Assembly (NCBI GenBank): GCA_017114885.1
Contig: WNLJ01000013.1
Coordinates: 1 to 64,000, forward strand
Direction: 5' to 3'
DNA from: Neisseriaceae bacterium PsAf
GTDB taxonomy: Bacteria > Pseudomonadota > Gammaproteobacteria > Burkholderiales > Neisseriaceae
DNA length: 64,000 nt
Position numbers and translations under genes: made by a program. The notes beneath the pieces were generated by a model that worked only from the letters and a program-made list of their open reading frames with translations, ran no database searches and was not told the DNA's origin. The first letter of the stretch is position 1. The number at the start of each line of letters is the position of its first letter. Shown here one piece after another: positions 8,136 to 51,516 of the stretch.

Positions 8136-9851
8136 TTAAAAAAGAAAATAACGCTGAGCTAAAGGTAAAGTTTTAGCAGGTTCGCAAGTTACTATTTTTC
8201 CATTCACTTTAACTTCATAGTTTTCAGGATTAACCTCAATATTAGGCATAGCGTTATTGTTAATCATATCCTTTTTTCCAATGGTACGACAATTTTTAAC
8301 AGGAAGTAATGTCTTATTCAATCCGTATTTGGTTTTAATATCATTATCTATGGAAAGTTTGGAAGTGAAAATAACAGCTGTTTTTTCGACGGCTCTTCCA
8401 AAAGAACCAAACATAGGTCTGTATAGAGTAGGTTGAGGTGTTGGGATAGAAGCGTTTGGGTCACCCATTTTTGCATAAGTAATAAAGCCATTTTTAATAA
8501 TCATTTCTGGTTTGACCCCAAAAAACCTAGGTTGCCATAATACAATATCTGCTAGTTTTCCTATTTCTATTGAACCTACATAATCACTAATTCCCTGGGC
8601 AATTGCTGGATTAATCGTATATTTTGCCAGATATCGTTTAATTCTAAAGTTATCATTATCACCCGTTTCTTCTTCTAGTCTGCCTCTTTGCTTTTTCATT
8701 TTATCTGCGGTTTGCCATGTTCTAATAATAACTTCAGCCACTCTACCCATGGCTTGAGAGTCAGAGCTCATAATAGAAAACACTCCCATATCATGCAGAA
8801 TGTCTTCAGCAGCAATGGTTTCAGGTCTGATTCTTGAATCGGCAAAAGCAACATCTTCTGGAATTCGTTTATCCAAATGGTGGCAAACCATTAACATATC
8901 TAAATGTTCTTCGATGGTATTTGCAGTAAAGGGACGAGTAGGGTTGGTAGACGCAGGTAATACATTAGGATACATACTGGCTTTAATGATATCTGGAGCA
9001 TGTCCTCCTCCTGCACCTTCAGTATGGAAGGTATGAATAATACGGTTATTAATCGCAGCCATGGTTTCTTCTAAATAACCACTTTCATTAAGTGTGTCTG
9101 TATGAATAGCAACTTGTACATCTAACTCATCCGCCACTGTTAAAGCAGCATCAATAACAGCAGGAGTAGCTCCCCAATCTTCGTGTATTTTCAAACCTAG
9201 CGCACCTGCTTTAATTTGCTCTTGCAGAGGTTCAAGAGAGGAGCAATTTCCTTTACCCATAAAGCCTAAATTAACAGGAAAATTTTCTGCCGCTTGCAGC
9301 ATACGCATGATATTCCAAGGACCAGGAGATACTGTGGTAGCATTTGTTCCATCTGCAGGACCTGTTCCACCACCAATCATGGTAGTAATTCCTGATTCAA
9401 TTGCATGATAGATTTGTTGTGGGCTAATAAAATGAATATGAGTATCGATACCACCAGCAGTTGCGATTAAATGAGCACCATTATGTACTTCTGTTGCGGC
9501 CCCAATAATCATGTTTTCAGCAATATTGTCCATGGTATCAGGGTTTCCCGAAGGACCAATACCAACAATTCTACGGTCTTTAATTCCAATATCCGTTTTA
9601 ATAATTTTATCATGGCTCAATAAAATAACATTAGTGATGACTAAGTCCAGTGCTTGTTCGCATGTTGCGAGACTAGATTGTCCCATGCCATCTCGAACTG
9701 TTTTACCACCACCAAATTTACACTCATCTCCATGATTTAATAAGTCTTCTTCTATTTCTAACCACAAATCAGTATCGGCAAGTCTAATTTTATCCTGAAG
9801 AGTAGGGCCATAAAGAGCAACATATTGTGATTTACTTAAAGTGGTGGGCAT
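8136..9851 (-). CDS. ureC: Urease alpha (catalytic) subunit UreC
   Basis: 571 residues, full length. It hydrolyses urea to ammonia and carbamate at a di-nickel centre. All active-site residues can be read: His138 and His140 (THIHF), the carbamylated Lys221 (GLKIHEDWG), His223, His250, His276, the flap Cys323-His324 (VCHHLD), and Asp364 ([10 protein letters not shown]). No truncation or frameshift, in contrast to the neighbouring accessory loci, so urease is likely functional. A GAGGATG ribosome site precedes the ATG; 44 bases separate it from ureB. Confidence 0.98.
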
Positions 9852-27229: not shown

Positions 27230-28240
27230 ATGAGTTATTATGTTGTGACAGGAGCAGCAGGATTTATAGGCAGTAATATTGTGAGTGCTTTAAATGAGAG
27301 AGGGATTACAAATATTATTGCGGTTGATGATTTAACAGAGGGCAATAAATTCCTGAATATGGTTGATAGTGAGATTGCGTATTACTATGATAAAACAGAA
27401 TTTATGCAATATGTTTGCGAACATCGTTTTAGTGATTTAAAAATAGCGGCGATTTTTCATGAGGGTGCTTGTTCTGACACGATGAATCATGACGGTCGAT
27501 TTATGATGGCAAATAATTATCAATATACTGTTGATTTGTTTCACTGGGCTCAGGATAAAAAAATTCCTTTCTTGTATGCCTCAAGTGCTGCTGTCTATGG
27601 TAAAGGGACAACCTTTAAAGAAGCAAGGCAGTATGAAAGCCCTTTAAATGTTTATGGGTATTCTAAATTTTTATTTGATCAGTATTTAAGAAACTATGTT
27701 AAAAATAACAAGTTAAAATCCCAAGTGGTGGGTTTTCGTTACTTCAATGTATACGGTTTTCACGAACAACATAAGGGGCGTATGGCGTCAGTTGCTTTTC
27801 ATCATTTTAATCAGTTTCATGAAAAGGGATATGTGGAACTGTTTGGCGAGTATGATGGTTATGAAAATGGGGAACAAAAAAGAGATTTTGTATCCGTAGA
27901 GGATGTGGTTAAAGTGAATTTTTATTTCCTAGATAATCCTGAAAAATCAGGAATTTATAATTTAGGTACTGGGAAAAGTGAATCCTTTAATGAGCTCGCT
28001 AGAGCCACAGTAAATGCCATTCGTGAATCTCAAGATAAAGAGAAATTATCTTTAGATGAAATGGTCGCGCAAGGTTTAATTCGTTACATTGATTTTCCTG
28101 ATAGCTTAAAGGGAAAATATCAAAGTTTTACTGAGGCAGATATAAGCCAATTGCGTCAAGCAGGCTATCATGATGATTTTTTCTCAGTAGAAGAAGGTGT
28201 CTCTCGATATGTTAATCAATTATTAGAACAAAATACCTAA
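27230..28240 (+). CDS. hldD: ADP-L-glycero-D-manno-heptose-6-epimerase
   Basis: 336 residues. It is a short-chain dehydrogenase-type epimerase making the heptose precursor of the LOS inner core. The NAD(P) motif [11 protein letters not shown] (residues 7-17) and the catalytic Tyr-Lys pair in [11 protein letters not shown] are present, as is the family segment EGACSDTM. With the hldE-type adenylyltransferase at 60184 it supports a heptose-containing LOS core. It lies 10 bases after purH. Confidence 0.96.
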
Positions 28241-28256
28241 GCAATAAGGAGATACT

Positions 28257-29306
28257 ATGTTAAAAAGAATAGGGATATTCTTATTAATAGGTGGATTGAT
28301 GAGCTCTTGCGCCACCGATAATAAAAATAATACATCTGTAACTACTGAAACACTGCAACGAGATTATCAGGGCTTTAATTATCAAGGCAATTATATATGG
28401 GCAGGTGCTATGAATTTGGCTTGGACAGAAATGAGCGAGCAGGTGATAGGAGCACCGATTCAGGTAAAGTCTAATCTTCAAAAAATTCAAAATAAGATTT
28501 ATTCTTATAACCACCCAGTTTTTACTAAAAAAGATATTAGTGCTGACAGTTACTATATTAAAAGTGGTTATGGGCAGAAGACGATTGATGCAATCAATCA
28601 AGAAGTGAAACAAAAATTTCCTCAAAAAAGTTTTCCTGATTTAAAAATTAAATTAGGCGACAAAGATATTATCAGTTACGCTTATTTATTAAAAGAAGTT
28701 CAATACAAAACGCCTTTTTCGATCACTTCTCTTAATTTTAATGGACAAGTTGTACAAGCATTTTCTGCAACTAATTCAGAAATGAGGAATAATATTCAAA
28801 TTTTGGATTATGACAACGATGATCGATTTATTTTGAAACTAAAGCTTAAAGATACAAAAGATGAACTTTTTTTGGTTAAAGGATATGAAAATTCCTCGGC
28901 TAAAGAAATTGTGCAACTTATTAATAAAAATAATATTAATAAAAATAATACTGGGAATTTTGAATTACTTGATACTAAAGATGAATTTAAAGCACCTAAA
29001 TTAGTTTTAGATGTGGGTCATCAACATAAAGAATTGATTAATGTACCAATTGCAAATGCTGGATTTGAAAACTATATAATTGGTGCAATGATAGAAAATA
29101 TTAAATTTAATATGAATGAAGTAGGGGCTAAAGTTGAAAATGAAGCCTATATTGGATTTACGGCGACAGCAGCAGTAATGAAAACACCCAAAAGACTTAT
29201 TTTAGATAAGCCTTATTGGGTTATTATGAAAGACGCACAAGGTCAGTCACCTTACTTTATTCTTGGTGTGAAAAATAGCGAATTAATGCAAAGAGTTAAA
29301 GAGTAA
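28257..29306 (+). CDS. Lipoprotein with a serpin-like C-terminal half
   Basis: 349 residues. An N-terminal signal ends in the lipobox MSSC (Cys18), so it is a lipoprotein. The middle and C-terminal parts resemble the serpin fold: DIISYAYLLKEVQYKTPF fits the conserved serpin strand (normally VLVNAIYFKGxW..F), FNMNEVGAKVENEA resembles the reactive-loop hinge NEEGxEAxA, and LDKPYWVIMKD comes close to the serpin signature around DxPFxFxI, ending in a YFILGVKN strand like LFxGRVxNP. Hinge-to-signature spacing is about 31 residues, as in real serpins. The N-terminal helices are divergent or shortened. It is within an operon with hldD and apaH. Function is unknown; an inhibitor role is inference from the motifs. 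Confidence 0.55.
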   Translation: MLKRIGIFLLIGGLMSSCATDNKNNTSVTTETLQRDYQGFNYQGNYIWAGAMNLAWTEMSEQVIGAPIQVKSNLQKIQNKIYSYNHPVFTKKDISADSYYIKSGYGQKTIDAINQEVKQKFPQKSFPDLKIKLGDKDIISYAYLLKEVQYKTPFSITSLNFNGQVVQAFSATNSEMRNNIQILDYDNDDRFILKLKLKDTKDELFLVKGYENSSAKEIVQLINKNNINKNNTGNFELLDTKDEFKAPKLVLDVGHQHKELINVPIANAGFENYIIGAMIENIKFNMNEVGAKVENEAYIGFTATAAVMKTPKRLILDKPYWVIMKDAQGQSPYFILGVKNSELMQRVKE

Positions 29307-29311
29307 AGTAA

Positions 29312-30136
29312 ATGGCACACTATGTAATAGGGGATGTACAGGGTTGTTATACTGTCTTGAGTGATTTGTTAGAATCGATTGATTTTAATTATGGCAAGGA
29401 CAGCATATGGTTTGCTGGAGATATCATTAATCGTGGACCTGAATCATTGGAAACCATACGTTTTATTAAAAAGCATGCTGATTGTCTGCAAACGGTTTTA
29501 GGCAATCATGATATATATTTGTTGTATTTAGCCACAAGAAAATCTGTTACCTACAAGAAAAAAGATACTATTGCCCCTATTTTACAAGCGCCTGATTCAA
29601 AAGAGCTCATTGATTGGTTAAGACAACAACCTTTGTATTTGCAAAATGAACATTATATTGTGGTGCATGCGGGGGTGTTTCCTGAGTGGTCTTTAGAAGA
29701 TGTACAGAAAAATGGTGATGAACTATCCCATTGGTTGCAATCAGCGCATTACGCAGAGCTTTTGAATCATATGTATGGAGATTTACCTAATCAATACTCC
29801 AAAGATTTACATGGATTTGATCGCTTAAGATTTAATATGAATGTTTTTACGCGCATGCGAGCGTTGTATCGCTGGGATAAAACATTAGATTTTAAATTTA
29901 AATCTTCTTTAAGCAATATGCCTTTTTATCTTAAAGCTTGGTTTGATTTTGAGAACCAAAATTTAGCAGATAAGAAAATTCTATTTGGTCATTGGTCAAC
30001 CATAGGACCTTATTATGGTGATTATGCCATTGGCTTAGATACAGGAGCAGTGTGGGGTGGTCGTTTAACTGCTTACAATATGGACACTGAGGAAACTTTT
30101 AGCGTACCCAATTATTCAGCCATTGATATTTTATAG
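29312..30136 (+). CDS. apaH: Diadenosine tetraphosphatase ApaH
   Basis: 274 residues. It is a symmetrical Ap4A hydrolase of the PPP phosphatase fold: the metal motifs GDVQGC (residues 7-12), GDIINRGPES and GNHD are intact, with HAGV and GHWST further on. It hydrolyses Np4N alarmones and can decap Np4-capped RNAs. It lies 5 bases after the serpin-like gene. Confidence 0.96.
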   Translation: MAHYVIGDVQGCYTVLSDLLESIDFNYGKDSIWFAGDIINRGPESLETIRFIKKHADCLQTVLGNHDIYLLYLATRKSVTYKKKDTIAPILQAPDSKELIDWLRQQPLYLQNEHYIVVHAGVFPEWSLEDVQKNGDELSHWLQSAHYAELLNHMYGDLPNQYSKDLHGFDRLRFNMNVFTRMRALYRWDKTLDFKFKSSLSNMPFYLKAWFDFENQNLADKKILFGHWSTIGPYYGDYAIGLDTGAVWGGRLTAYNMDTEETFSVPNYSAIDIL

Positions 30137-31705: not shown

Positions 31706-32326
31706 ATGATAACGGCAAATTATTTAGTTCCTACCGTCATTGAACAGACAGGCAGGGGAGAGAGAGCATTTGATTTATATTCAAGATTGTTAAAGGATAG
31801 AATTATTTTTTTAGTAGGGCCTGTTGATGATGCTATGGCGAATTTGATTGTCGCGCAATTATTATTTCTAGAGAGTGAAGATGCGAGTAAAGATATTTAT
31901 TTATATGTAAATTCTCCAGGAGGCTCAATTACAGCAGGAATGGCAATTTATGACACCATGAATTATATCAAGCCAGAAGTATCAACCATATGCACGGGTA
32001 TGGCAGCCAGTATGGGTGCTTTTTTACTTTCTTCTGGTGTTAAAGGCAAGCGTCTGGCTTTGCCTAATAGTCGCATTATGATTCACCAACCATTGATTAG
32101 TGGTGGCTTGTCTGGTCAAGCTTCTGATATCGAAATTCACGCCAAGGAATTAATTAAAACCAAGCAAATTATGAATGAATTGTTGGCAAAGAATTGTGGT
32201 AAATCAATAGAAGAAGTTGAAAAGGATACAGATAGAGATAATTTTTTGTCGGCAGAAGAAGCAAAAGACTATGGTTTAATTGACCAAGTCATTACTTCTA
32301 GATCTGAATTAAAAGGAAATAAATAA
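31706..32326 (+). CDS. clpP: ATP-dependent Clp protease proteolytic subunit
   Basis: 206 residues. The serine protease triad can be read as Ser102 (GMAASMGAF) and His127 (RIMIHQP), with an Asp in the DTDRDNF segment near 174-178. The oxyanion loop SPGGS is at 70-74. It forms the tetradecameric chamber used by ClpX. A GGAGAG ribosome site precedes it; clpX begins 2 bases after its stop. Confidence 0.98.
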
Positions 32327-38999: not shown

Positions 39000-39722
39000 G
39001 TGCGTAAAATATTAGTCACTGGCTCTAGTCGAGGAATTGGCAAAGCGATTGCTTTATCTTTATTAAAAGAATCTTATTATGTTATTTTTCATGGCAAAAC
39101 CGAGAGTAATGCTCTTAGAGAGACCTTAACAGAAGCAAAAAACATTTCAGAAAATTTTGATTATTTATCTTTTGATGTGGGCAACCATCTGGAAAGTAAG
39201 GAAACCTTAGAAAAATTTATTAATGATAAAGGTGCTCTTTATGGAGTAGTTTTAAATGCGGGTATTAGTAAAGATGGCCCATTCCCTGGCTTAACCCAAG
39301 AAGATTGGCAAGATGTGATAGATGTATCTTTAGGAGGATTTTATAATGTTTTACATCCTTTAGTTATGCCTATGATTCGTCTAAAAGAAGGGGGTCGCAT
39401 CATTACTCTGTCTTCAATTTCTGGTGAAGTGGGCAATAGAGGGTAAGTTAATTATAGTGCAGCTAAAGGAGGAATTATTGCTGCTACTAAAGCATTAGCA
39501 TTAGAACTAGGTAAAAGAAATATTACTGTTAATTGTGTTTCTCCTGGTTTAATCGAGACAGATATGTTGACGCAAGAAGTTATAGATCATTCTCTTAAAT
39601 TAATCCCATTACAACGTTTAGGAAAGCCTCAAGAAGTTGCTAATTTAATTAAATTTTTATTTTCTGATGAAGCAGCTTATATCACACGTCAAGTTATTTC
39701 GATTAATGGGGGGTTAGTTTGA
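39000..39722 (+). pseudogene. apeQ: APE 3-ketoacyl-ACP reductase (FabG/ApeQ type), nonsense mutation
   Basis: An SDR-family ketoreductase of about 240 codons starting GTG, with AAGGTGG upstream. The NADP motif TGSSRGIGKAI and the LNAGISKDG region are normal. A TAA at 39444-39446 interrupts the sequence GNRG-stop-VNYSAAKGG; the family has Gln here, so CAA to TAA is the simplest change. The frame continues cleanly to the natural stop at 39720-39722. The catalytic Tyr-x3-Lys lies just after the stop, so the truncated product (148 residues) cannot reduce substrates. The natural stop overlaps the next ATG (TGATG). Confidence 0.92.
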
Positions 39723-40954
39723 TGAAAAGGGTTGTGATAACAGGGGTTTCAGGTATTACGCCATTAGGTAATGATTGGTCTACAATATGGGAAAAAATAA
39801 AAGGTAAAAAATCGGGTATCACACAGGTAAAAATGTTATCTGAATATCCGGAAATGAACAGTCATCTTGGAGGGCTAGCCGAATTTACTTTACCTAGTCA
39901 TTTTACTAGGAAGATGACTAGAGGAATGGGAAGAGTAGCACAGATGGCCGTAACCACTGCATACCAAGCGTTACAGGACGCTAATTTATTGGATAATCCT
40001 ATTTTGACATCAGGACATACTGGAATTGCATTTGGTTCATCTTCTGGAAGTTCTAAAGCAGTTGAAGATTTTGGTCGCTTTATTGTTGAAAAAAATTATA
40101 AAAAAATGAATGCAACAACTTATATCCGAATGATGTCACATACAGCTTTGGTAAATATCTCTGTTATATTTGGTTTGAAAGGTTTATCTTTACCAACTTC
40201 TTGTGCCTGTGCTTCTGGTTCTATGGCAATAGGTCAAGCCTATGAAGCCATAAAATATGGTAAGCAAACAGTAATGTTGGCCGGAGGAGCTGATGAATTT
40301 TCTAGCGGTGCAGTGGCTGTTTTTGATGTTATGTATGCTACAAGTTGTTTAAATAAAACACCAGAATTGACACCTAGACCCTATGATATGAATAGAGACG
40401 GGTTGGTGATAGGAGAAGGGTCAGGCTGTTTGATTTTAGAAGAGTATGAGTTTGCAAAAAAGCGAGGCGCCACTATTTATGCGGAAGTAGTAGGTTATGG
40501 TAGCAATACAGATGGAGTACATGTCACTAATCCTAATTATGAAACCATGCAACGTTGTATGGTGTTAGCATTAGAGGATGCTCAATTAACTCCCAAAAAA
40601 ATTGGGTATATTTCAGGACATGGCACAGCAACGGAACATGGTGATATTGCTGAAAGCTTAGCAACGGAAAATGTTTTTGGTTATGTTCCTATTAGTTCTA
40701 TGAAAAGTTATTTTGGACATACATTAGGTGCTTGTGGTGTTTTAGAAGCGTGGTTGGCAATAGGAATGATGAATCGAAAGCAGTTTGCACCTACTTTAAA
40801 TTTAGATGTAGTTGATATAAAATGTGGAAATCTAGATTATGTTATGCATGATGTAAGAAAGTTAGATTGTGAATATGTAATGAGTAATAATTTCGCTTTT
40901 GGTGGAATCAATACTTCGTTAATTTTTAAGAAAAGGGATGAACATGAATTATAA
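39722..40954 (+). CDS. apeR: Ketosynthase of the APE pathway (ApeR/FabF type)
   Basis: About 410 residues, full length. A condensing enzyme with active cysteine 163 in SCACASGS and the two histidine motifs GHGTATEHGD and GHTLGACG, as in FabF-like KS enzymes. In known APE systems a KS with this position after the ketoreductase extends the polyene chain on ACP. The frame is intact although the gene just upstream is broken. It ends overlapping the next gene. The ape letter is by gene order. Confidence 0.85.
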   Translation: MKRVVITGVSGITPLGNDWSTIWEKIKGKKSGITQVKMLSEYPEMNSHLGGLAEFTLPSHFTRKMTRGMGRVAQMAVTTAYQALQDANLLDNPILTSGHTGIAFGSSSGSSKAVEDFGRFIVEKNYKKMNATTYIRMMSHTALVNISVIFGLKGLSLPTSCACASGSMAIGQAYEAIKYGKQTVMLAGGADEFSSGAVAVFDVMYATSCLNKTPELTPRPYDMNRDGLVIGEGSGCLILEEYEFAKKRGATIYAEVVGYGSNTDGVHVTNPNYETMQRCMVLALEDAQLTPKKIGYISGHGTATEHGDIAESLATENVFGYVPISSMKSYFGHTLGACGVLEAWLAIGMMNRKQFAPTLNLDVVDIKCGNLDYVMHDVRKLDCEYVMSNNFAFGGINTSLIFKKRDEHEL

Positions 40955-41372
40955 GTTTGGAATAGTAGCAGCATTAGTATGTGTGTCAGCGGTTTCTTAT
41001 GCGAGAAATGATGCAGTGTATTATGATTTTCAAAAACACGTGCAAGCAGCCATTCAAGATGGTTCGATTGATGGAAGTGTTAAATTTTATTTACAAGGTG
41101 CGCCTGGCAACAGTGGTACAATTATCACTAAAGATTTGGTGACTAATAAAAAGAGCAGCGCCATGACATTACCTGAAGAGCAAAGATGTGCTTATGTGTT
41201 AAAATCTGCTTTAATTCAACTGCACAATCGCGCTAAATCAGAAGGTGCTACTAAGGTTATTAATATAAAGAGTTTCTATAAGAAAAATACCTATTCTGAT
41301 CCAAATAAATATGAATGTCACGTAGGCAATACAACCGTTGGTGTGACATTAAAAGGTGATTTAGCTAAATAA
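40944..41372 (+). CDS. Small periplasmic protein of unknown function in the APE cluster
   Basis: About 142 residues from the ATG at 40944, which has GGG at a good distance; an ATG two codons earlier is also possible. A clear signal peptide (LVCVSAVSYA, cleavage near residue 20) is followed by a soluble domain with two cysteines (QRCAYVL and YECHVG) that could form a disulfide. Similar small exported proteins, often mislabelled as excinuclease, occur in APE loci; that is from memory. It overlaps the ketosynthase end by 11 bases. Confidence 0.7.
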   Translation: MNYKFGIVAALVCVSAVSYARNDAVYYDFQKHVQAAIQDGSIDGSVKFYLQGAPGNSGTIITKDLVTNKKSSAMTLPEEQRCAYVLKSALIQLHNRAKSEGATKVINIKSFYKKNTYSDPNKYECHVGNTTVGVTLKGDLAK

Positions 41373-41380
41373 ATATAAAT

Positions 41381-41995
41381 GTGACTAATAAAATTTATCT
41401 TTATGCTGTTTCCTTAGATGAGATAGTTCAAAAAGGAAGCAGTTTGAGAGAACAAAGACAGCAGATACGGGAGTACAAGTATTATCTGCTGTCTAATATA
41501 TTGGGCACTCGTATTACTAAAGATGATATGAGTTATACTGAAAGAGGAAAACCATTTATTCACGATAAAAATTTTTCTTTTAGTATTTCTCATAGCAAGG
41601 AATATTACGCAATTGCTTGGATTAATGAGCAGATAGAATTAGGTTTGGACATAGAATCTTTGTCTAGAAATGTTAATTTAGGGGTTGTTAAGAAGACATT
41701 ATCCAAACAACAACGGTCTTATTTTGTCTCTAATGGTCAAAAAATGACCGATTTCTTGTACTTTTGGACGCAGAAAGAATCATTTATAAAAGCCAAAGCG
41801 CTTAGTATTTACATAGGATTGAATCGATTAAATTTTGAGACAATCTCTGATTCGACACAAAATAATTTAGTGATTAGTGAATACGATAATCAAATTTATA
41901 GAATGATACCTTTTCAGTTATATGGTCAAATAGGGACTGTTTGTTGTCGTTCTTCAGAAATTGATACACTTGGAATTGTCGAATCAATTGCTTAG
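41381..41995 (+). CDS. 4'-Phosphopantetheinyl transferase
   Basis: 204 residues from a GTG at 41381. It has the Sfp/AcpT signature: SISHSKEYYAIAW, LGLDIES and FWTQKESFIKA, with the Asp and Glu magnesium ligands. It activates acyl carrier proteins, here most likely the two APE carriers at 43444 and 43711. The intact reading frame contrasts with several dead partner enzymes. No good ribosome site is seen; translation may be coupled to the gene before, 8 bases away. Confidence 0.88.
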   Translation: MTNKIYLYAVSLDEIVQKGSSLREQRQQIREYKYYLLSNILGTRITKDDMSYTERGKPFIHDKNFSFSISHSKEYYAIAWINEQIELGLDIESLSRNVNLGVVKKTLSKQQRSYFVSNGQKMTDFLYFWTQKESFIKAKALSIYIGLNRLNFETISDSTQNNLVISEYDNQIYRMIPFQLYGQIGTVCCRSSEIDTLGIVESIA

Positions 41996-42038
41996 GTTAC
42001 TTTTAATTTAAAGAAAATTTTTCTAAGAGGTTATGGCG

Positions 42039-42698
42039 ATGCTTGAATTGCATGTGCAAAAAACATTGTTTTATCATGGTAAATCAGACATTAATTCTAA
42101 TAAAATACAAATTATTCCAGCAGGACAAAGAAGAAAGTTATCAACTTTAGCCAAAATGGCCACTTCAATTGCTTTAGAAGCATTAGAAAATGATGAAGTA
42201 GATTTTATTGTTTGGGTTTCTCGTTATGGAGAAGAGAATAAAACGGTTGATATCATGTCCAATATTGTAGAAAATTATCCTCCATCGCCTTTACAATTTT
42301 CATCTTCTGTTCATAATTCCATAGGAGGGTTATACTCGATTTTATTGAAAGACACTACCCCTTATACTAGCTTAGGATTAAGTGAAAGTATTTTGTTAAA
42401 TGCTTTATTTGAAGCACAATCTTACATTCAGTCTGGATATGCAAAAAAAGTTTTACTAGTGATATATGATGAACCTTTGCCAGAATTATATAAAATGGAT
42501 TCTTTGTTAACACCATTTTCTTTTGCATGTTTGTTAAATGATGAACAACCTAACTTATTTTTTGGGCCAGTGAAAAACGAGAATATTAATAGAAATTTAT
42601 TTCAAGAGATACAAAAATTCTATGATTTTTTTCAAAATGAGATACCTAGTTTTACCCTAGAAGATTGTAAAATTAACAAATGCATCTCCAATCAATAA
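42039..42698 (+). CDS. apeC: Short ketosynthase-like protein (ApeC / chain-length-factor type)
   Basis: About 219 residues from the ATG at 42039, which has AGAGG 8 bases upstream; ATG 42033 is too close to it. It matches the short ketosynthase-like domain of APE clusters, with QFSSSVHNSIGGLYSI in place of the active-site region, so the catalytic cysteine is missing, as expected for a chain-length factor. It would pair with a true KS. Its end overlaps the start of the acyltransferase gene by 19 bases. Confidence 0.78.
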   Translation: MLELHVQKTLFYHGKSDINSNKIQIIPAGQRRKLSTLAKMATSIALEALENDEVDFIVWVSRYGEENKTVDIMSNIVENYPPSPLQFSSSVHNSIGGLYSILLKDTTPYTSLGLSESILLNALFEAQSYIQSGYAKKVLLVIYDEPLPELYKMDSLLTPFSFACLLNDEQPNLFFGPVKNENINRNLFQEIQKFYDFFQNEIPSFTLEDCKINKCISNQ

Positions 42699-43443
42699 CT
42701 AAATTTCTTTCAATCGTCTTAGGCTTTACCCTGTTTGGCTTGGGAGGGGTTTTGTTTGGTGCTATTTATTTACCCATTAAAGCAATATTTTTTAGAGGAG
42801 AAAAAAATATTTGTTTTATCAACAAAATATACACAATATATTCAATAGGTTTGTGAATATTTTGGTTAAATTAAATATTTTTGAAATTAATATTCAAGGC
42901 GAAGATAAAATCAATCAGATAAAAAATGAGTTAATCGTAGCCAATCATCCTTCGTTAATGGATGTTGTTTTCTTAATTTCCATCCTACCAAAAGTTACTT
43001 GCATTGTTAAACCGGCAGTTTGGTACAACCCTTTTATGAAAAACCCTGTTAGAGGCGCCCAATACATAAAAAGTGATCAAGCGGAAACACTTATTCAAGA
43101 CTGTGTGGATATTATTACTGAGGATAAGCGTTCTATTCTAATCTTTCCAGAAGGAACCAGAACGCTTAAGGGAAATCAATTAAATCCACTGAAAAAAGGC
43201 TTTGCTAATATCGTTTATAAACAAAATATACTTGTCCGACCGATTACAATTACTATGAATCCTCGCTTTCTTTGTAAAGAAGACAAATGGTATAATATTC
43301 CGAAGGGCGTCGTTAAGGTCACCATTGATATAGAGGACCCTTTGGATGTCCAAAAATGGTATCAATTAACAGACTCTAGATCCATTGCTGTTCGTAAAAT
43401 AACAACACAAATGTATGAATATTTTTTAAAAAGGATAAAATAA
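42680..43443 (+). pseudogene. apeD: APE acyltransferase (1-acylglycerol-phosphate acyltransferase type), frameshift
   Basis: The ATG at 42680 opens a frame with a membrane segment (FLSIVLGFTLFGLGGVLFGAIYLPIK), which then ends at a TGA near 42855. The rest of the protein lies in the frame that is open from 42811 to 43443, with the acyltransferase motifs NHPSLMD (HX4D) and FPEGTR. One missing base at the A7 run 42804-42810 joins the two. A TTG at 42811 could start a soluble version without the membrane anchor, so some activity is possible. In APE systems this enzyme is thought to act on the lipid anchor. Confidence 0.8.
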
Positions 43444-43698
43444 ATGAGTGATTTATCCAATGAAGTAAAAGTGATGATGATTGATGTTTTATCTTTAGAG
43501 GATATAACACCAGAAGATATTGATAATACAGTACCTTTATTTGGAGAAGGTCTGGGATTGGATTCAATTGACGCATTAGAATTAGCACCTGCTTTAAAAA
43601 AACGCTATAACATTCAATTATCGGCAGATTCTGAAGAAACTAAAAAACATTTCGAGTCTGTTCAAAGTTTAGTAGAGTTAATAGAAGCGAATCAATAA
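43444..43698 (+). CDS. apeE: Acyl carrier protein 1 of the APE pathway
   Basis: 84 residues. It shows the four-helix ACP fold with the phosphopantetheine site Ser in GLDSIDALELA. It starts directly after the acyltransferase stop. One of two ACPs typical of APE loci, each thought to carry different stages of the chain. Intact. Confidence 0.9.
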   Translation: MSDLSNEVKVMMIDVLSLEDITPEDIDNTVPLFGEGLGLDSIDALELAPALKKRYNIQLSADSEETKKHFESVQSLVELIEANQ

Positions 43699-43710
43699 AG
43701 GTGGTTGATA

Positions 43711-43947
43711 ATGCAAGAACAAGAGATATTACAACAAGTTAGGCAATGGTTAGAGGAACTGTTTGAAATAGATCCAGAAGAAGTTCAAATGGATACTCAT
43801 TTATTTGAAGACTTAGATATCGACAGTATTGATGCTATTGATTTAATCGTTAAAATTAGAAACGAAACAGGAAAGCAGGTAAAACCTGAACAGTTTAAAG
43901 AAGTTCGATATATTAAAGATGTTGTGAAGATCATTGAAAGCTTGTAA
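43711..43947 (+). CDS. apeF: Acyl carrier protein 2 of the APE pathway
   Basis: 78 residues from the ATG at 43711, with AAGGTGG upstream. Phosphopantetheine Ser in DLDIDSIDAIDLI. More acidic than ACP 1. It overlaps the next gene's TTG start by 14 bases. Confidence 0.9.
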   Translation: MQEQEILQQVRQWLEELFEIDPEEVQMDTHLFEDLDIDSIDAIDLIVKIRNETGKQVKPEQFKEVRYIKDVVKIIESL

Positions 43948-44488
43948 TACGCGACTTTTTTTAAAACTATTTTTGGTTATATTGGGTGTTGTTTATCCAT
44001 TTATCGTTTATTTTGGATTGGATAAATACGGGCCTATATTTTTAGCAGTATTTTTATTGGTGTTGATTCTGCTTAGGTGGTATTTCGATACAGACAATTC
44101 TTTTAAGTGGGTTTACATTGTTGCAATAGTAATGTGTCTACTGACTATTGTTAAAAGTAATGAAATATGGATTCAATTTTACCCAGTTTTGATGAGTTTT
44201 GGTTTTTTTAGTATTTTTCTATATAGCTTGTTATACCCACCAACTATTATAGAGCGATTTGCACGAATAAAATACCCTACATTGGATCAAAAGGCAACTC
44301 AGTGGATATATAGGGTAACAGTTGTCTGGACTGTTTTTTTTCTTCTTAATGGTCTTATAGCCTTAGGGACTGTTTTATATGGTTCGCTTGACTTATGGAC
44401 ATTATACAATGGCCTAATATCCTATTTGTTAATGGGTGTGATTTTTGTTGGTGAATGGATATTACGTTTTTTTAAAACTAAAAATTAA
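43934..44488 (+). CDS. APE cluster inner-membrane protein (COG4648 type)
   Basis: 184 residues from a TTG that overlaps the ACP 2 stop. About six hydrophobic segments cover most of the length (FLVILGVVYPFIVYFGLDKYG, LAVFLLVLILL, WVYIVAIVMCLLTI, and others). It resembles the COG4648 membrane protein found after the ACPs in APE clusters (apeG position). The role in the pathway is not established. Intact. Confidence 0.8.
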   Translation: MKACNTRLFLKLFLVILGVVYPFIVYFGLDKYGPIFLAVFLLVLILLRWYFDTDNSFKWVYIVAIVMCLLTIVKSNEIWIQFYPVLMSFGFFSIFLYSLLYPPTIIERFARIKYPTLDQKATQWIYRVTVVWTVFFLLNGLIALGTVLYGSLDLWTLYNGLISYLLMGVIFVGEWILRFFKTKN

Positions 44489-44497
44489 AAGCTTGAT

Positions 44498-46163
44498 ATG
44501 AATATTGTCATTGATAAATTAAAAAAGAATATTGATAGTGAATTAACACTAGCTTATTCAGAAAATAATATTTGGAGTTATCAAGATTTTTGGTTAAAAG
44601 TTTTCAACCTAAAGAACCAATTAGAACAAGAATCTTATACAGATTATTGTTTATGGGAAGATAATGGATATTATTTTTTAGTTAGTTTTTTTGCTTTATT
44701 ATTGAGTAATAAACAAGTCTATTTACCGCCTAATAACCTTATTTCAACTATTCATTCCTTAGCATTACGCAATATATTTAACTTCAAGTATGATACGTAT
44801 GCTGTTTCTGAGCATTCTAATGCCAACGCTGTGCTGCCAAGTTCAATCGATTGGGATGCATTACTGAATAATAGTTTTTTTATGCAAACATCAGGTTCAA
44901 CTGGAGAGCCTAAACTTATAGAAAGAAAATTAATACAGCTTTTTAGAGAAACTTTATTTTTATCAAAATTAGCTAAAGTTAATGAAAATAGTTCTTTTTT
45001 AGTAACAGTATCTCATCAGCATATGTTTGGTTTTTTGTATCAATTATTTTTGCCTTTAATTAATGGTGCTTCTTTCTATGCCGAAATGATTTTATTCACA
45101 GAAACACTGTGCCAAAAAATAGAGCAAAGTGTAGAAAATAATCAATTTCCAATCGTGATTAGTAGCCAAAGTTTTTTATCAAGAACAAGTCAAAAATTAC
45201 CCTTAGAAAATACTTTGATATTTTCATCAGGAGGTTCCGTCGCTCCCAATATTAGAAGTCAATACAAAGGGAAGTTAATTGAAATATACGGCTCTACCGA
45301 AACCGGAGGAATAGCCTATTCACGGCAATTAGGGCAATTTACCCCATTTGAACAAGTTGAAATTAAAACAGATGAATTTAATCAAATTTATATACGGTCA
45401 CCTTATTCATTTATTGATGAATGGTACAGTACAGGGGATATTGTCAATTTTTCTGATAAAAAAAAAGAATTTTTTTGATGGGACGTTCTAATCGTTTGAT
45501 TAAATTGCAGGAAAAACGTATTTCTTTAGATGAGATAGAAAATCAAATCTTAAATTTGGCTGAAGTTGTCAATGTTTTTGTTTTTATTGGTGAGAATGAC
45601 AATAAAAGAGAGATTGTCAATGCCGTATGCGAATTGTCCAATGATGCTTGGCAAACATTAAAAAAATTGGAAAAGTTCAATTTGTTAGTCAGTTGAAAAA
45701 AGAATTAAGGAATTATCTAGAATTAAGTTTTATTCCTAAGCAATGGCGGTTTGTGGAAAAAATTCCAGTAAACAGTGTCAATAAAATAAATTGGCAGCAA
45801 GTTAATGCTTTGTTTGCACATCCAGCCAAAATGCCTCTATATGAAATTATTACCTATCATGATAAAGAAATTAATCTAAGATTATTTTTTAATGAAGAAT
45901 TAATTTATTTTAAAGGACATTTTCCTGATAATCCAATTTTTCCTGGGGTTGCTCAATTGGCTGTTTCTTTACAGTTAGGAAGAGATTTATTTTCACTTAA
46001 ACAGATAGTTGAACGGGTCGAAAAAATTAAATTCGCCAAAGTAATACAACCTTACGAGATAGTTGTTATGAATATGCAACTTAAAGATAATAAAAAATTA
46101 TTATTTAAGATGAATAACTTAGAAGAAGAATTGGTTTCTTCTGGTACTTTTATATTGAAATAA
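44498..46163 (+). pseudogene. apeH: Fused AMP-ligase / dehydratase (ApeH-ApeI type), two frameshifts
   Basis: The first 980 bases encode an acyl/aryl-ACP ligase domain with TSGSTGEPK (P-loop) and YGSTETGG. One missing base at a T7 run (45470-45476) shifts into GRSNRLIKLQEKRISLDEIE, the hinge and C-terminal domain. A second missing base at an A7 run (45660-45666) shifts into IGKVQFVSQLKKELR and then, without a break, a FabA/FabZ-like hot-dog domain with GHFPDNPIFPGVAQL. The enzyme should load 4-hydroxybenzoate-type starters and dehydrate 3-hydroxyacyl-ACP. The join at residues after WRFVEKIPVN...W shows the two were one polypeptide. Neither full activity is encoded now. Confidence 0.9.
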
Positions 46164-46166
46164 ACT

Positions 46167-46920
46167 ATGAATAATTTTTGCGCCATTATTCCAGTATACA
46201 ACCATCCCCAGCATCTAGTAGAACTGGTTGAATATTTTCAAAGATTAAATATTTTTGTAATCATGGTAGATGATGGTAGTTGTGCAGAAACGGCACATGT
46301 TATTGATGATATTTGGCAGCAAAAACAAAATGAGATGACCTGTATCCGACACCCTTATAACCAAGGAAAAGGAGCGGCCATCAAAACAGGCATAAAAGAA
46401 GCTCAAAAGTTAGGATTTTCACATGCTATTCAAATAGACGCAGACGGACAACATGCTTGGCAAGATGTACCCGAATTTATTAAAGTTTCAGAGCAATATC
46501 CAGAAAGAATTATTATTGGTTATCCAGTATATGATGAGAGTGTTGATAAAAAAAAGGTTTTATGCACGTTATTTAACACATGTTTGGGTTTGGATAAATA
46601 GTTTATCATTAGAAATTAAAGACAGTATGTGTGGATTTAGAATTTATCCTGTAGATATCGTACAAAAACTTTTAAATCATATCGAAATAGGGGATTATAT
46701 GGATTTTGACTCAGAAATTTTAGTCTGTTTAAAATGGCAAGGTTATCACTTCGTTAATATTGCAACTGAGGTAAAATATCCAGAAGGGAATACTTCAAAT
46801 TTTAATTTGGTTAAGGACAATATTCGGATTTCTAAAATGCATGCTAAACTTTTTTTATTGATGTTAATAAAAAGTCCAGTGATTTTATATAGAAGAATAA
46901 TAGAGAAAGATAATGGCTGA
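46167..46920 (+). pseudogene. APE glycosyltransferase family 2, frameshift in an A8 run
   Basis: The N-terminal GT2 domain reads CAIIPVYNHPQHL, MVDDGSCAET and QIDADGQHA, with the DxD nucleotide-sugar site as DAD. At the A8 run 46548-46555 one base too many puts the reading out of frame and it stops at 46601. One A less (A7) continues into RYLTHVWVWINSLSLEI and SMCGFRIYP, the typical second half. A fusion with an acyltransferase (ApeJ) is known in APE loci; here the acyltransferase is a separate overlapping gene. Slippage on eight A's might give some full-length protein. Confidence 0.88.
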
Positions 46921-47833
46921 AAAGAAATGGAATGATATACAAGAAAGAGGAAACTTAATTTTTTTTGAAATTATGTTTTTTTTCTATCGGGTAGGTGGAA
47001 GAGCATTATTTAATTTTATTTTATTTTTCGTCATATTTTGGTATTGGATTTTTTCTCCTTTGGCTCGGCAATCATCTTATGAATATTTAACCAACGTACA
47101 TAATTATTTTAAAGAAAATTCGCCATTTAGAAAAAAACCCAATATTTTTTCTACGTATAAACATCTTTATTATTTTGGTTATACCTTATTGGAAAAAATG
47201 TTTGGTTGGTTTGGGGTAGTAACCGAAGAGAATATTAAATTATTCGGTTGGGATTGTTTTCACGAAAATTATCAAAAGGGTGCTGTTATTATTGTTAGTC
47301 ATTTTGGTAATGTAGAAATTATTCGTTCTTTAAGAGGTCATCGGCAGAAGATTAATGTACTGGTTTATACCAAGCATTCTGAATCTTATAATAGAATGTT
47401 AAATAAATATGCTAAAAAAAATAAAGTAGAATTAATACCCATAGAAAAAATAGATATTGCAGAAGCATTACTATTGCAAGAAAAAATAGCACAAGGGGAA
47501 TGGGTTTTAATAGCAGCAGATAGAGTTCCTGTACATTCTAAGCGAGTGATATCATGTGATTTCTTAGGCAAAGCCGCTGATTGGCCCATAGGCCCATGGT
47601 TGTTGGCTAATTTATTAGAATGTCCTGTAATTTCATTATTTTGTTATTTTAATCAAGATCAATACGAAATTCATATAGGAGAAATGTATCGCAAAATTGA
47701 GTACACTAGAGAAAATAGGGATAAGATTATTAAAGAGGCGATAGAAGAATATGCTTTGATTCTTGAAAAACATTGTCAAGAAAAGCCTTACTTATGGTTT
47801 AATTTTTTTAAATTTTGGAATGATTATGCTTGA
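46913..47833 (+). CDS. Lipid A acyltransferase-like protein of the APE cluster
   Basis: 306 residues, LpxL/HtrB-type fold. An N-terminal membrane segment (FNFILFFVIFWYWIF) is followed by the catalytic HxxxxE in VSHFGNVE and the ADRVPV region. It matches the C-terminal half of ApeJ-type proteins, thought to build the lipid anchor of the pigment. It overlaps the glycosyltransferase by 8 bases and the thioesterase gene by 8 bases. Frame intact. Confidence 0.82.
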   Translation: MAEKKWNDIQERGNLIFFEIMFFFYRVGGRALFNFILFFVIFWYWIFSPLARQSSYEYLTNVHNYFKENSPFRKKPNIFSTYKHLYYFGYTLLEKMFGWFGVVTEENIKLFGWDCFHENYQKGAVIIVSHFGNVEIIRSLRGHRQKINVLVYTKHSESYNRMLNKYAKKNKVELIPIEKIDIAEALLLQEKIAQGEWVLIAADRVPVHSKRVISCDFLGKAADWPIGPWLLANLLECPVISLFCYFNQDQYEIHIGEMYRKIEYTRENRDKIIKEAIEEYALILEKHCQEKPYLWFNFFKFWNDYA

Positions 47834-48279
47834 TTCTAATGTTTTAATAAAAAACAATACGGTTATTGAGGTTCCCTTTTATGATGTTGATGTTATGGGA
47901 ATTGTTTGGCATGGTAATTATCTAAAATATTTTGAAGTAGGCCGATGTTCTTTATTGAATGACATTCATTATGATTATTTTGCAATGGAAAAATCAGGTT
48001 ATCTTTGGCCTGTTGTTGATACTCAAATTAAATTTATTCAACCTGCATTTTTTTAAACAGAAAATATTAGTTGTCAGCACCTTACTTGAATGGGAAAATC
48101 GTCTAAAAATAGGTTATGAAATTTTTGATGAACTAAATCACAAAAAACTAACCAAAGGGTATACCGTACAAGTGGCGGTTGAGGCAGATACTCATGTACT
48201 TTGCTTACAAAGTCCGGATGTTTTTCTAGAAAAAGTAAATGCTTATTTATCAAAAAATAACCAAGAGATGAGACAATGA
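47826..48279 (+). pseudogene. apeK: APE thioesterase (4-hydroxybenzoyl-CoA thioesterase fold), frameshift
   Basis: A hot-dog thioesterase with the family motif DVDVMGIVWHGNYLKYFE, whose Asp is catalytic. At a T7 run (48048-48054) one base too many gives a stop at 48055-48057. With T6 the frame continues as PAFFKQKILVVSTLLEWENRLKIGYE to 48279, the expected full length of about 150 residues. It would release or edit the acyl chain. It overlaps its neighbours on both sides. Confidence 0.88.
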
Positions 48280-48884
48280 AAAAATTTTTTGTATTAATGA
48301 ATTTAGTCATGTTAAGTTTATTTTCATTTTCTTATGCAGATGACTTAACAGATATTTTGGATATCATTTCAGTTAAAAATAATGTACAAGCTGATTTTAT
48401 TCAAGAAAAAAAACTATCACAATTAAATAAACCGATGATTTCTAGTGGAAGATTTGTTTATAACCCTCAAAAAGGCATTTTATGGGAAATGCAAAAACCA
48501 GTGGTTGCTGATATTGTCATTACAGATAAAAAACTGATACAAAAAACGAATCGTTCTCAATCAGAAATCAACTTAAAAAATAGCCCTTATGCTTCAATTG
48601 CATCTTTAACGAGTCAGCTGATGTCAGGCAATAAAAAGGCTTTAACTGATTCTTTTATTGTACAAGAAGTGACTAACAATCCCAATGCTTGGAAAATTAT
48701 TTTAACGCCCAAAGATAGCAATTTAAAAAACTTATTTAATAAGATTCAAGTTTCTGGGCAAAATTATATCAATCGTATTGATATAGAAGATAAAAATCAA
48801 TCGAATACATTAATTAAATTTAGTCATCATCAATCTCAACCTTTGACGAGTAGAGAAAATGAACTTTTCCAGATGGCACAATAG
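48276..48884 (+). CDS. apeL: LolA-like periplasmic lipoprotein carrier of the APE cluster
   Basis: 202 residues. A signal peptide (FVLMNLVMLSLFSFSYA) is followed by the LolA-type half-barrel: NNVQADFIQEKKLSQL and SGRFVYNPQKGILWEMQKP are recognisable. It probably shuttles the lipid-linked aryl polyene from the inner-membrane MMPL exporter to the outer membrane. The frame is intact, although its partner exporter is broken. It overlaps the exporter gene by 26 bases. Confidence 0.85.
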   Translation: MKKFFVLMNLVMLSLFSFSYADDLTDILDIISVKNNVQADFIQEKKLSQLNKPMISSGRFVYNPQKGILWEMQKPVVADIVITDKKLIQKTNRSQSEINLKNSPYASIASLTSQLMSGNKKALTDSFIVQEVTNNPNAWKIILTPKDSNLKNLFNKIQVSGQNYINRIDIEDKNQSNTLIKFSHHQSQPLTSRENELFQMAQ

Positions 48885-51164
48885 ATTAAAATATTTATGG
48901 CTATTTGTTATCCTTTTACTCATAGGTACTGTTACTTTTTGGTATCAAAATAACAAGATAAATATTCAAAATGATATTTATTCTTTGTTGCCTGAACAAA
49001 TATTCCCCGCTGAAATTAATCAATCTTCAAAAGAAATAATGGATAAATTAGGCAGCAAATTATTTGTTATGCTTGAATCATCCAGTGAAAAAGATTTAAA
49101 TGCCAGCACTCAATTTTTAGCTCAAAAGGTAAAAGGGATTGATTGGATAAAAGAGATTTCATTTCCTGATTTTAAAACAGGCTATCAAACTATTTTTCAG
49201 TATCGGAACAATTTATTGAGCACTTCTGATAAAAACTTGTTAAAAGAGCAAGATTATGAATCATTAATTGATGCATCATTATTAAAACTATATAGTCCGG
49301 GGACTATACTTTCAGATGATTTGCTAAAGCAAGATCCTTTTTTATTTTTTTCATCTTTTGTATTCGAGCAATTGGAGTTCCAAGCAGTTAAGTCTCATAT
49401 AGAAATGATAGATGCTTATCCTACTATTCATAACGATGACCAATGGCATCGATTATTAATGTTTGAAGTTAATGGTAATGTCATGGATGTGGCTTTTCAA
49501 GAAAAAATATTGCCAGTATTTGAATCAATCAAACAAGATGTAGCGACTAGTTATCACAGTAAAATTTTTGCAACTGGGTTTTTATTATTTTCAATATCAG
49601 GGACACAGTCTGCCAAAAGTGAGATATCAATTATTAGTTGGGGCTCCATTTTAGGGCTGATATTGTTAATTATTATAGGTTTTAAATCTATTCGTCCCAT
49701 TTTTACAGAATTAACAGCAATTACGTCTGGATTTTTATTGGCCTTTGTCTTGACCCATAGTCTTTTTGGAGAAATTCATTTATTAACTTTGGTATTTGGC
49801 GCTAGTTTGATTGGAATTAGTATCGATTTTTCTTTTTACTATCTTTTTACGCAATCAGGTAATCGAGAATTGACGGCCTTAGAGCTACTAGCGCAACTAA
49901 TGCCAATTTTGTTAATGAGTCTTATAACAACATTACTGGCATATTTATGTTTGTATTTTACCGGTCTGGTCGGCTTGCAGCAAATTGCTATTTTCTCCAT
50001 TTTTGGCTTGATTGGGGCCTGGGTAACTAACTTCTTTTTATTGCCTCAATTACCAGCACTGGATACTGGTTTGGTGCAAAAAATATTCTATTTTTTACCT
50101 AAAATACGCGCTTATTGTTTACAAAACAAAAGAGTGGTTAATTTATTTTTAGGGGTTGTCTTATTTTTATCTGTAGGTGGTATTTTTTATCTACAAGCAG
50201 ATGATAATGTACAAAGCTTACAAGCAAAAAATTCAGAACTGGTAGCACAACAAGAAGCGATTCAAAAATGGTTTGGAGAACAAAATTTAAATCAATATTT
50301 TATTGTAACCGGACAAGATGAAAATAATATAGTCCTACAAGAATATTTATTATTGAATGAATTAAAAAAATTACAAAAACAAAAAATGATTTCGCAGATA
50401 AATGCTATTGGTCTATGGGTATTACCTCAATCCATACAATTGGAAAATAATCAATTAATACAAAACATTCCAGATGATGCTTTATCTAACTACGCTGAAT
50501 TATCAGGACTTAGTTATCAACAATTAAGAGATTGGAAAAAAGAAGTTGAGAACTTAAAAATTTTAACGTTAGACGACATTAAAGATATATTAATGCTATC
50601 GGACTTAAATTAAGTAATGGGGCTAGGGTTATCCTGGTTGATTCAGATCAAATAGACGTTTTACAGGCTTTAGCCAATCAATTTAAACAAGTGTTTTATG
50701 TGAATACAGGCTATTATTTAAGTGAATTATTCAAAGACTATTGGATTAAAGCAGAAATTCAACTGGGAATAGCTATTGCTATTTTATGTTTACTCATGTG
50801 TGTTGTTTATGGACTTAAAGTGGGTATTCGTTTAATGACACCTGTTATCATTGCTTTATTAGCAGCTTATAGCACTTTATCGGTGCTAAATTATTCAATT
50901 AATTTATTTAGCATTATGCCTGCTTTTTTGATATTGGGAATAGGAGTAGATTATACAATCTATTTTTATTCTAATAATTTGAAAAATAGTTTAACTTCAA
51001 TCGCTTTATTGTTTTGTATGCTCACATCAATTATTGGGTTCGGTTTATTGGCTTTAAGCAGTACCTATGCAGTTAAGTCCTTTGGAATGCTGATACTTTT
51101 TGGTGTATTATATTCGTATATTTTTGCTTTTATTTCCATCCCCCCTAAATGTTTAAACGACTAA
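48859..51164 (+). pseudogene. apeM: MMPL-family exporter of the APE cluster, frameshift
   Basis: The RND/MMPL exporter has a first transmembrane segment, a periplasmic domain, a block of five to six helices (from about residue 255), a second periplasmic domain and a second helical block. The frame ends at 50613. Near 50591-50593 one lost A would continue as LNAIGLKLSNGARVILVDSD and join the second half, which is open to 51164 and contains NLFSIMPAFLILGIGVDYTIYFY. The present product loses the last membrane half and should not transport. The lesion is not in a long homopolymer. Confidence 0.88.
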
Positions 51165-51174
51165 AGAGAGAATC

Positions 51175-51516
51175 ATGAATATAAATAATGAAAACAGTGC
51201 TGACTATGATGTAATTATCATTGGTGCGGGGCCTTCAGGTGCGTCTGCGGCTGCCTTATTAAGACAAAAAGGATTTTCAGTTTGCATTTTAGAGAAACAG
51301 CATTTTCCTAGATTTGTAATAGGTGAATCTCTTTTACCGCATTGTATGAGTTTTTTTGAAGAAGCTGGTTTTTTATCTGCCTTGCAAGATAAAGCACAAG
51401 AATTGGCGTTTCAAAAAAAGATTGGTGCTTTTTTTATGAAACATGACATGAATACTTTTTTCGATTTCAGAGAGAAGTTTACACCAGGACCTGCTATTAC
51501 CTGGCAGGTTAATTAA
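51175..51516 (+). pseudogene. FAD-dependent oxidoreductase of the APE cluster, 3' truncated
   Basis: 113 residues remain of a flavoprotein that is normally about 400 residues (tryptophan-halogenase / geranylgeranyl-reductase type). DVIIIGAGPSGASAAALL is the Rossmann FAD motif and GESLLPHC the second conserved block. Coding stops just after TWQV, where the family continues with an arginine-rich segment. The rest of the gene is missing, so a deletion is likely. It follows the exporter by 10 bases. Confidence 0.85.

Follow-up and report, generated by a model that had tools for sequence, protein, structure and literature searches.

The open reading frame at 28257-29306 of this contig raises two questions: whether its product is a serpin and, if so, whether it handles proteases as inhibitory serpins do. 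We examined it within the window, by which we mean the whole stretch of 64,000 nucleotides that was analysed. The gene and its immediate surroundings are as follows.

28257..29306, + strand: serpin-fold lipoprotein gene, 349 aa (ORF listing, fold model, congeneric orthologue)
28246..28251, + strand: Shine-Dalgarno-like AAGGAG (direct reading), with 5 bases between its end and the ATG
27230..28240, + strand: hldD/rfaD-like epimerase gene, upstream, 16 bases from the serpin gene
29312..30136, + strand: apaH-like metallophosphoesterase gene, downstream, 5 bases from the serpin gene, with the same order in the congeneric genome G056

According to the ORF listing of the window, the frame begins with ATG and belongs, with hldD and apaH, to a run of co-directional genes. 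It is a real gene, because the congeneric genome G056 has an orthologue in the corresponding position whose product is 76% identical to the window protein, and the dN/dS between the two is 0.21 (Nei-Gojobori). The gene is under purifying selection, though its dN/dS is above that of six nearby genes (0.03-0.12). Its G+C content is 30.3%, against 33.2% for the window. The original prediction had placed it in an LOS/alarmone gene neighbourhood, and the ORF listing and Pfam scans confirm hldD and apaH there. These two genes flank it in both congeneric genomes; the few neighbours examined in other lineages differ, so that the neighbourhood says little about function.

The protein had also been described as a lipoprotein, and its beginning bears this out.

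28257..28310, + strand: signal peptide and lipobox-like MSSC with acceptor Cys18 (sequence; Cys column kept in the close clade)

The start, MLKRIGIFLLIGGLMSSC, has the signal peptide, lipobox-like motif and cysteine of bacterial lipoproteins, with Met, which is unusual, at position -3. Cysteine occupies the lipobox column in 20 of the 23 rows of the close clade described below. The window protein is probably exported and held by a fatty anchor, and we infer lipid attachment at Cys18 and a location in the outer membrane.

Searches of Pfam, NCBIfam, PHROGs and the PDB sequences with the window protein brought up nothing meaningful, and the serpin profile PF00079 was unmatched in it and in its own genome. 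A two-row profile (the window protein and its orthologue) fared no better against the PDB sequences, plasmids and phages searched with tblastn were negative, and single-sequence BLASTP with a canonical serpin came back empty. Automatic pattern scans of genome and viral contig collections confirmed no relative. A further pattern scan of viral contigs gave two, one with an 11-residue match to the window protein and the other with none, both taken as chance, and viral contigs scanned for the canonical serpin of L006 were negative. These null results suggested an orphan, a reading overturned by the homologues that a degenerate-motif scan returned.

For that scan, the motif D-I-[hydrophobic]-x-[YF]-A-[YF]-[LF]-x-K-(7)-F was turned by hand into a degenerate DNA pattern and run over genome contigs, of which at least 118 matched. 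At least 43 homologous ORFs lie in 42 of the 118 contigs listed (E < 1e-10 with the two-sequence profile, best near 1e-105), and the other 76, with no family ORF below 1e-10, were taken as chance pattern matches. A short, weak family match was seen in L083 (E 3e-4), and the canonical serpin found in L069 lies at a distance from the site that matched the pattern. By record titles and tree labels, the relatives among the matches listed belong to about 13 phyla (Patescibacteria counted once), including Patescibacteria, Cloacimonadota, Ignavibacteriota, Planctomycetota, Elusimicrobiota, Omnitrophota, Bacillota, Chloroflexota and Verrucomicrobiota; most are metagenome-assembled, and some of the phylum labels may be wrong. 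On an Elusimicrobiota contig (L052:1-1841) two family ORFs are adjacent, the first truncated by the start of the locus, and they are perhaps a tandem pair. A DUF4147/MOFRL gene, which we take to be glycerate-kinase-like, adjoins the family gene in three of the four Cloacimonadota loci examined, and no shared neighbour was found among the loci of other relatives that were scanned. No protease gene adjoins the family gene at the window locus or in relatives, among the one or two neighbours scanned at each, several of them without a Pfam match; an ORF at 31706, 2.4 kb downstream of the serpin gene, is presumably clpP-like and its product cytoplasmic.

An alignment of 36 rows (A3) was built from 34 of the 43 ORFs, the window protein and its G056 orthologue. 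The nine sequences left aside are fragments, masked or multi-domain (L091, L037, L108, L135, L080, L087, L061, L067 and the shorter L052 ORF). Apart from the orthologue, the rows share 22-48% identity with the window protein. The invariance of columns D137, I138, A142, K146 and F154 stems at least in part from the search pattern, which required these residues; the columns fall within DIISYAYLLKEVQYKTPF (residues 137-154), which, like NEVGAKVENEA (residues 287-297), is one of the motifs named in the original prediction, and both are present. The rows fall into a close clade of 23, which holds the window protein and reads NYVWGGAMNLAWNEL with the hinge GARVENEAVI, and a distant clade of 13, which reads NLLYCSTFQLAWNEL with the hinge GxxLxSEA. 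The split is well supported, and long branches meet there, as the tree program warned. The window pair sits in its clade on a long stem (0.91), at a position that the tree does not fix.

Among 83 genomes of the same bacterial family, the gene occurs in two, its own and that of the congener, and the wider profile likewise gave two of 83. This distribution, with the long stem, suggests that the gene was transferred into the genus. Serpins had been called uncommon in this group, and indeed PF00079 is matched in one of 399 genomes of the order. When 349 genomes of the phylum were searched with the 36-row profile at E <= 0.001, besides the window's own gene only two sequences were recovered (E 2.4e-5 and 2.8e-5), both canonical serpins of another family of the phylum:

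L142:1444-3003, - strand: canonical serpin (Pfam match, LGAC start)
L143:1444-2793, - strand: canonical serpin (Pfam match, LGAC start)

Like the window protein, these two combine a lipobox-like start, LGAC, with a serpin domain; unlike it, they have the hinge DEKGTEAAAATA and score 336 and 340 bits against PF00079. The divergent serpin branch is rare in the window's phylum. Weak profile matches in single genomes (L005, L007-L011; E 0.008 to 0.1) were taken as chance.

Descent from serpins can be followed in sequence once the family, instead of one protein, is used as the query. Against 177,635 PDB sequences, the 36-row profile gave 42 matches at E <= 10, of which 41, counting 9hbk, are serpins (best 5.6e-5), and all six matches at E <= 0.01 are serpins; the many matched entries stem from a small number of proteins, chiefly PAI-1 and antitrypsin. 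With the 13-row distant subfamily, 53 of the 59 matches at E <= 1 are serpins, the best 16 included, and the remaining six are alcohol dehydrogenases and a flagellar protein. A search with the serpin Pfam model had been put forward as a check, and its outcome is divided: it fails for the window protein, and 15 of the 36 members match PF00079 at E <= 1 (best E 1.2e-4), all below the curated cut-off. The best score of ten members scanned singly is 21.9 bits, and the gathering cut-off is 27 bits. The family is not filed under PF00079 as curated; it is a divergent branch beside it.

Profile-profile comparison (hhalign) of the mature 36-row alignment with nine serpins (alignment A2, in which one row, L017, has an unrelated tail) scored 41.7. 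By comparison, 300 column shuffles had a mean of 15.6 and a maximum of 26.8, and the reversed profile scored 18.2; the hhalign probability was 55%, ranging from 44 to 76% with the settings. The distant subfamily aligned to the same serpins with P 7.6e-7 and a probability of 92% over 221 collinear columns, and the close clade alone (23 rows) with P 0.0027. The two-sequence profile reached 24.75, a value equalled by 5 of 300 column shuffles (P 0.02), so that the resemblance seen with it is suggestive only. The N-terminal 240 columns alone gave no hhalign signal against serpins, and the similarity in sequence is concentrated in the C-terminal third. There the original prediction had pointed to a near match to the serpin signature. 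Taking this signature to be [LIVMFY]-x-[LIVMFYAC]-[DNQ]-[RKHQS]-[PST]-F-[LIVMFY]-[LIVMFYC]-x-[LIVMFAH], we found that the best site of the window protein is indeed LDKPYWVIMKD (residues 316-326), with two mismatches at nine constrained positions. Ten of the 36 family rows, all of them members of the distant subfamily, have the signature exactly; among 7200 shuffled sequences, 5 do. Common descent with serpins is detected by the family profile and not by the single window sequence.

The fold was modelled with AlphaFold2 on the 36-row alignment, which contains no canonical serpin, and without templates. The model has a mean pLDDT of 84.4 and a pTM of 0.79, with pLDDT below 50 at residues 1-3, 11-34 and 302-314; a model from two sequences (pLDDT 32) was useless. 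Three segments of the confident model serve as landmarks.

28668..28706, + strand: strand of residues 138-150, s3A equivalent (model secondary structure; hhalign of the distant subfamily with serpins)
29082..29114, + strand: strand of residues 276-286, s5A equivalent (model; hhalign of the distant subfamily with serpins)
29193..29234, + strand: s1C/s4B equivalent, residues 313-326, with the signature-like LILDKPYWVIM (model, entropy, signature match)

All of the best 50 Foldseek rows listed against the PDB are serpins (E 1.7e-10 to 2.8e-8), with TM-scores by query length of only 0.44-0.54. Their identity was taken from the title or molecule name, save for 9hbk and 9hl2, which we take to be serpins, 9hbk being a poxviral protein. 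The best 50 rows listed by VIA-align are all serpins too, the top one with Z 19.9 and 3.6 A over 268 residues, covering residues 36-344 of the model. A fold search of a viral library gave 19 matches at E <= 0.001; 10 carry serpin or serine-protease-inhibitor names, and the best match is not among these. The model thus points to a serpin fold across the whole domain. The N-terminal region had been thought too divergent to judge, which for the fold no longer applies, as the best structural match shows; the serpin-like character claimed for the protein is upheld by the model, the structural matches and the family profile together. Because of the family-profile matches and the confident serpin-fold model, we assign the protein to the serpin superfamily, and consider its serpin fold and descent close to certain. 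The family forms a deep branch of that superfamily, as yet without a name, that extends over many bacterial phyla.

In its fold and in the strand order of its C-terminal two-thirds the family resembles the serpin superfamily (PF00079, MEROPS I4; for instance PAI-1, alpha-1-antitrypsin and the poxviral 9hbk), and it shares with it the P17 Glu, the P15 Gly, the loop spacing, the DKP[FY] step and the C-terminal s4B/s5B. It differs in the hinge, GA(R/K)VENEA or GxxLxSEA instead of GTEAAAA, in Val or Leu at P12, and in falling below the Pfam cut-off. The window protein is also shorter than serpins, its modelled part covering about 310 residues (34-345) where the serpin profile has 370 positions, and, judged from the secondary structure of the model, it appears to be without helix A and the helix-E/strand-1A segment.

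Whether such a protein inhibits proteases depends largely on the hinge and the reactive-loop equivalent.

29118..29153, + strand: hinge P17-P6 (EVGAKVENEAYI), entropy 0.53 bits, from residue 290 modelled as an inserted s4A
29154..29192, + strand: variable reactive-loop centre, residues 300-312, entropy 2.17 bits, with pLDDT < 50 at 302-314

Of 13 segments compared within the close clade, P17-P6 varies least (mean entropy 0.53 bits). The loop centre averages 2.17 bits, against 0.53 and 0.73 bits for its flanks, the latter being residues 313-326. The hinge Glu (E288) precedes the DKP proline (P319) by 31 residues, as had been noticed from the sequence; the P17-to-Pro distance is 28-38 in 35 family rows and 28-32 in eight of nine canonical prokaryotic serpins, those in which it was measurable. 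P17 is Glu in 20 of 23 close rows and in 9 of the 12 distant rows with a letter, and P15 is Gly in all 35 rows with a letter. At P12, 22 of the 23 close rows have Val and each of the 12 distant rows with a letter has Leu, and P9 is mostly Glu; in the window protein P14 is Ala and P13-P9 is K-V-E-N-E. Inhibitory serpins have ExGTEAAAA at P17-P9, according to the passages cited from PMC8233489, and a strongly conserved Ala at P12, according to those cited from PMC7946950. The window protein departs from this rule, with AKVENE against TEAAAA at P14-P9. The hinge, offered as serpin-like in the original prediction, is therefore unlike that of inhibitory serpins.

The best explanation, to which we would give about an even chance, is a lipid-anchored protein of the serpin branch with insertion-based handling of proteases. 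Entry of the loop into beta-sheet A as strand 4 is the move by which serpins trap a protease. As an exported, lipid-anchored member of this deep branch, the window protein would have a reactive-loop equivalent (residues 288-318) built to make the same entry, for which the hinge turn D/N-E-K/V-G and the in/out pattern A-x-V-x-N-x-A-x-I would be suited. A protease of the envelope or the environment would cut the variable loop centre; the hinge strand would then stay in sheet A or complete its insertion, and the protease would be caught or, failing that, kept off the cell. The protein could act as a trap or as a mere bait. The variable centre between conserved flanks and the canonical loop spacing speak for an inhibitor. 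Because the hinge departs from the inhibitory rule and is modelled as inserted, we judge that protease inhibition by the window protein could go either way.

One relative, from Pseudobacteroides, also speaks for an inhibitor.

L087:1576-3999, - strand: protein of 808 aa with a dockerin, a chagasin-type I42 peptidase-inhibitor domain and a serpin-like domain; also a carboxypeptidase-regulatory-like domain below cut-off

Cellulosomal dockerin serpins are known, and this protein is like them in joining a dockerin to a serpin-like domain; it is unlike them in its divergent hinge and its I42 match, which is weak, its 22.3 bits falling short of the 27.2-bit cut-off.

An alternative that we rate as plausible, with a chance somewhat short of even, is a constitutively relaxed, non-inhibitory serpin, in which the protein's own hinge fills s4A on folding. 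It would be latent from birth, and would serve as a scaffold or ligand binder at the surface or in the periplasm. The original prediction expected an exposed loop between hinge and signature; in the model, residues 290-302 instead form a strand following s5A (276-286), with a block pLDDT of 92 for 291-300, and from the strand order of this hairpin the hinge is apparently already inserted in sheet A. Moreover, of the best 50 VIA-align titles, 21 refer to a form that is cleaved, latent, loop-inserted or in complex with a peptide; against this, 25 name no state and four another (1ath, intact and cleaved; 1nq9 and 3evj, intermediate; 2vh4, a loop-C-sheet polymer). All 18 antithrombin rows from entries with a chain L are chain L, which we assume to be the latent chain in the matched entries other than 1AZX; two further antithrombin rows, 1att_B and 1ath_B, are not chain L. 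In 1AZX chain L is the latent one, as stated in the passages cited from PMC11226102. The VIA-align library holds one chain per set of identical sequences, however, and native antithrombin chains may be absent from the comparison.

AlphaFold is said to force antithrombin into its native form (PMC11226102, passages cited), and because of this the inserted-loop model is noteworthy, but not proof: AlphaFold2 may simply return the relaxed state, and may be biased with shallow alignments. The relaxed state would also fit a hinge that is the most conserved segment and yet breaks the inhibitory rule. On the other side, the conservation of residues 313-326 may be easier to reconcile with an intact s1C than with a latent form, and the Pseudobacteroides relative joins the domain to another peptidase-inhibitor domain. 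More tentatively still, the whole branch could consist of ancient, overlooked relaxed-state serpins, with the hinge as a permanent strand of sheet A, that are not suicide inhibitors. We regard this as rather unlikely; if true, the branch would be an outgroup for deciding which is older, the metastable trap or the relaxed fold.

An improbable alternative is that the protein is displayed at the surface to neutralise serine proteases of a host. Miropin, a lipoprotein, reportedly does so in Tannerella forsythia, and the lipid anchor, the serpin fold and the presence of the gene in both species of the genus examined would be compatible with such a role. According to the passages cited from PMC8233489, published bacterial serpins inhibit host proteases. 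The hinge, however, is not canonical, and the relatives, mostly metagenome-assembled candidate phyla with other bacteria, give no sign of a common contact with hosts. That the protein is no serpin at all, but an unrelated fold with a chance resemblance in its last 70 residues, is scarcely credible: the null single-sequence BLASTP, the missing PF00079 match in the window and the poor two-sequence profile and model are contradicted by the 36-row and distant-subfamily profiles, hhalign, the AlphaFold2 model, Foldseek and VIA-align.

A published comparison is with the prokaryotic serpins of group T, namely miropin, the siropins and tengpin, which are likewise bacterial (PMC8233489, passages cited). 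Most of the miropin group are judged inhibitory there, and the same passages do not mention the window's branch. They describe prokaryotic serpins as sparse and mostly from actinobacteria, proteobacteria, bacteroidetes and firmicutes, and propose a metazoan origin for them. We did not find a published description of the branch in the literature searched, which is no proof that none exists. The curated profiles searched miss this branch, in candidate phyla as elsewhere, and it offers a natural test both of which hinge residues are essential to the trap and of where the fold came from. In the scans made, it also gives a likely identity to proteins that match no curated model above cut-off over this domain.

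Some minor observations were made along the way. On two Rhizobium plasmids (L018 and L019), the serpin gene lies directly between genes for a trypsin-like serine protease and a Ser/Thr kinase, in both of the two examined; 75 Rhizobium records matched the serpin query behind these loci. Within the window, positions 9404-9700 give an Rfam match to the 5' ureB sRNA (70 bits), antisense in a ureC-like ORF (8136-9851), which may reflect coding conservation only. In the region 39000-51516, which we take to be a cluster resembling those for aryl-polyene or fatty-acid-like synthesis, several genes are seemingly short or split across neighbouring ORFs. Finally, the ORFs at 185-979 and 1397-1852 look like the two ends of one interrupted gene, presumably hydroxylamine-reductase-like.
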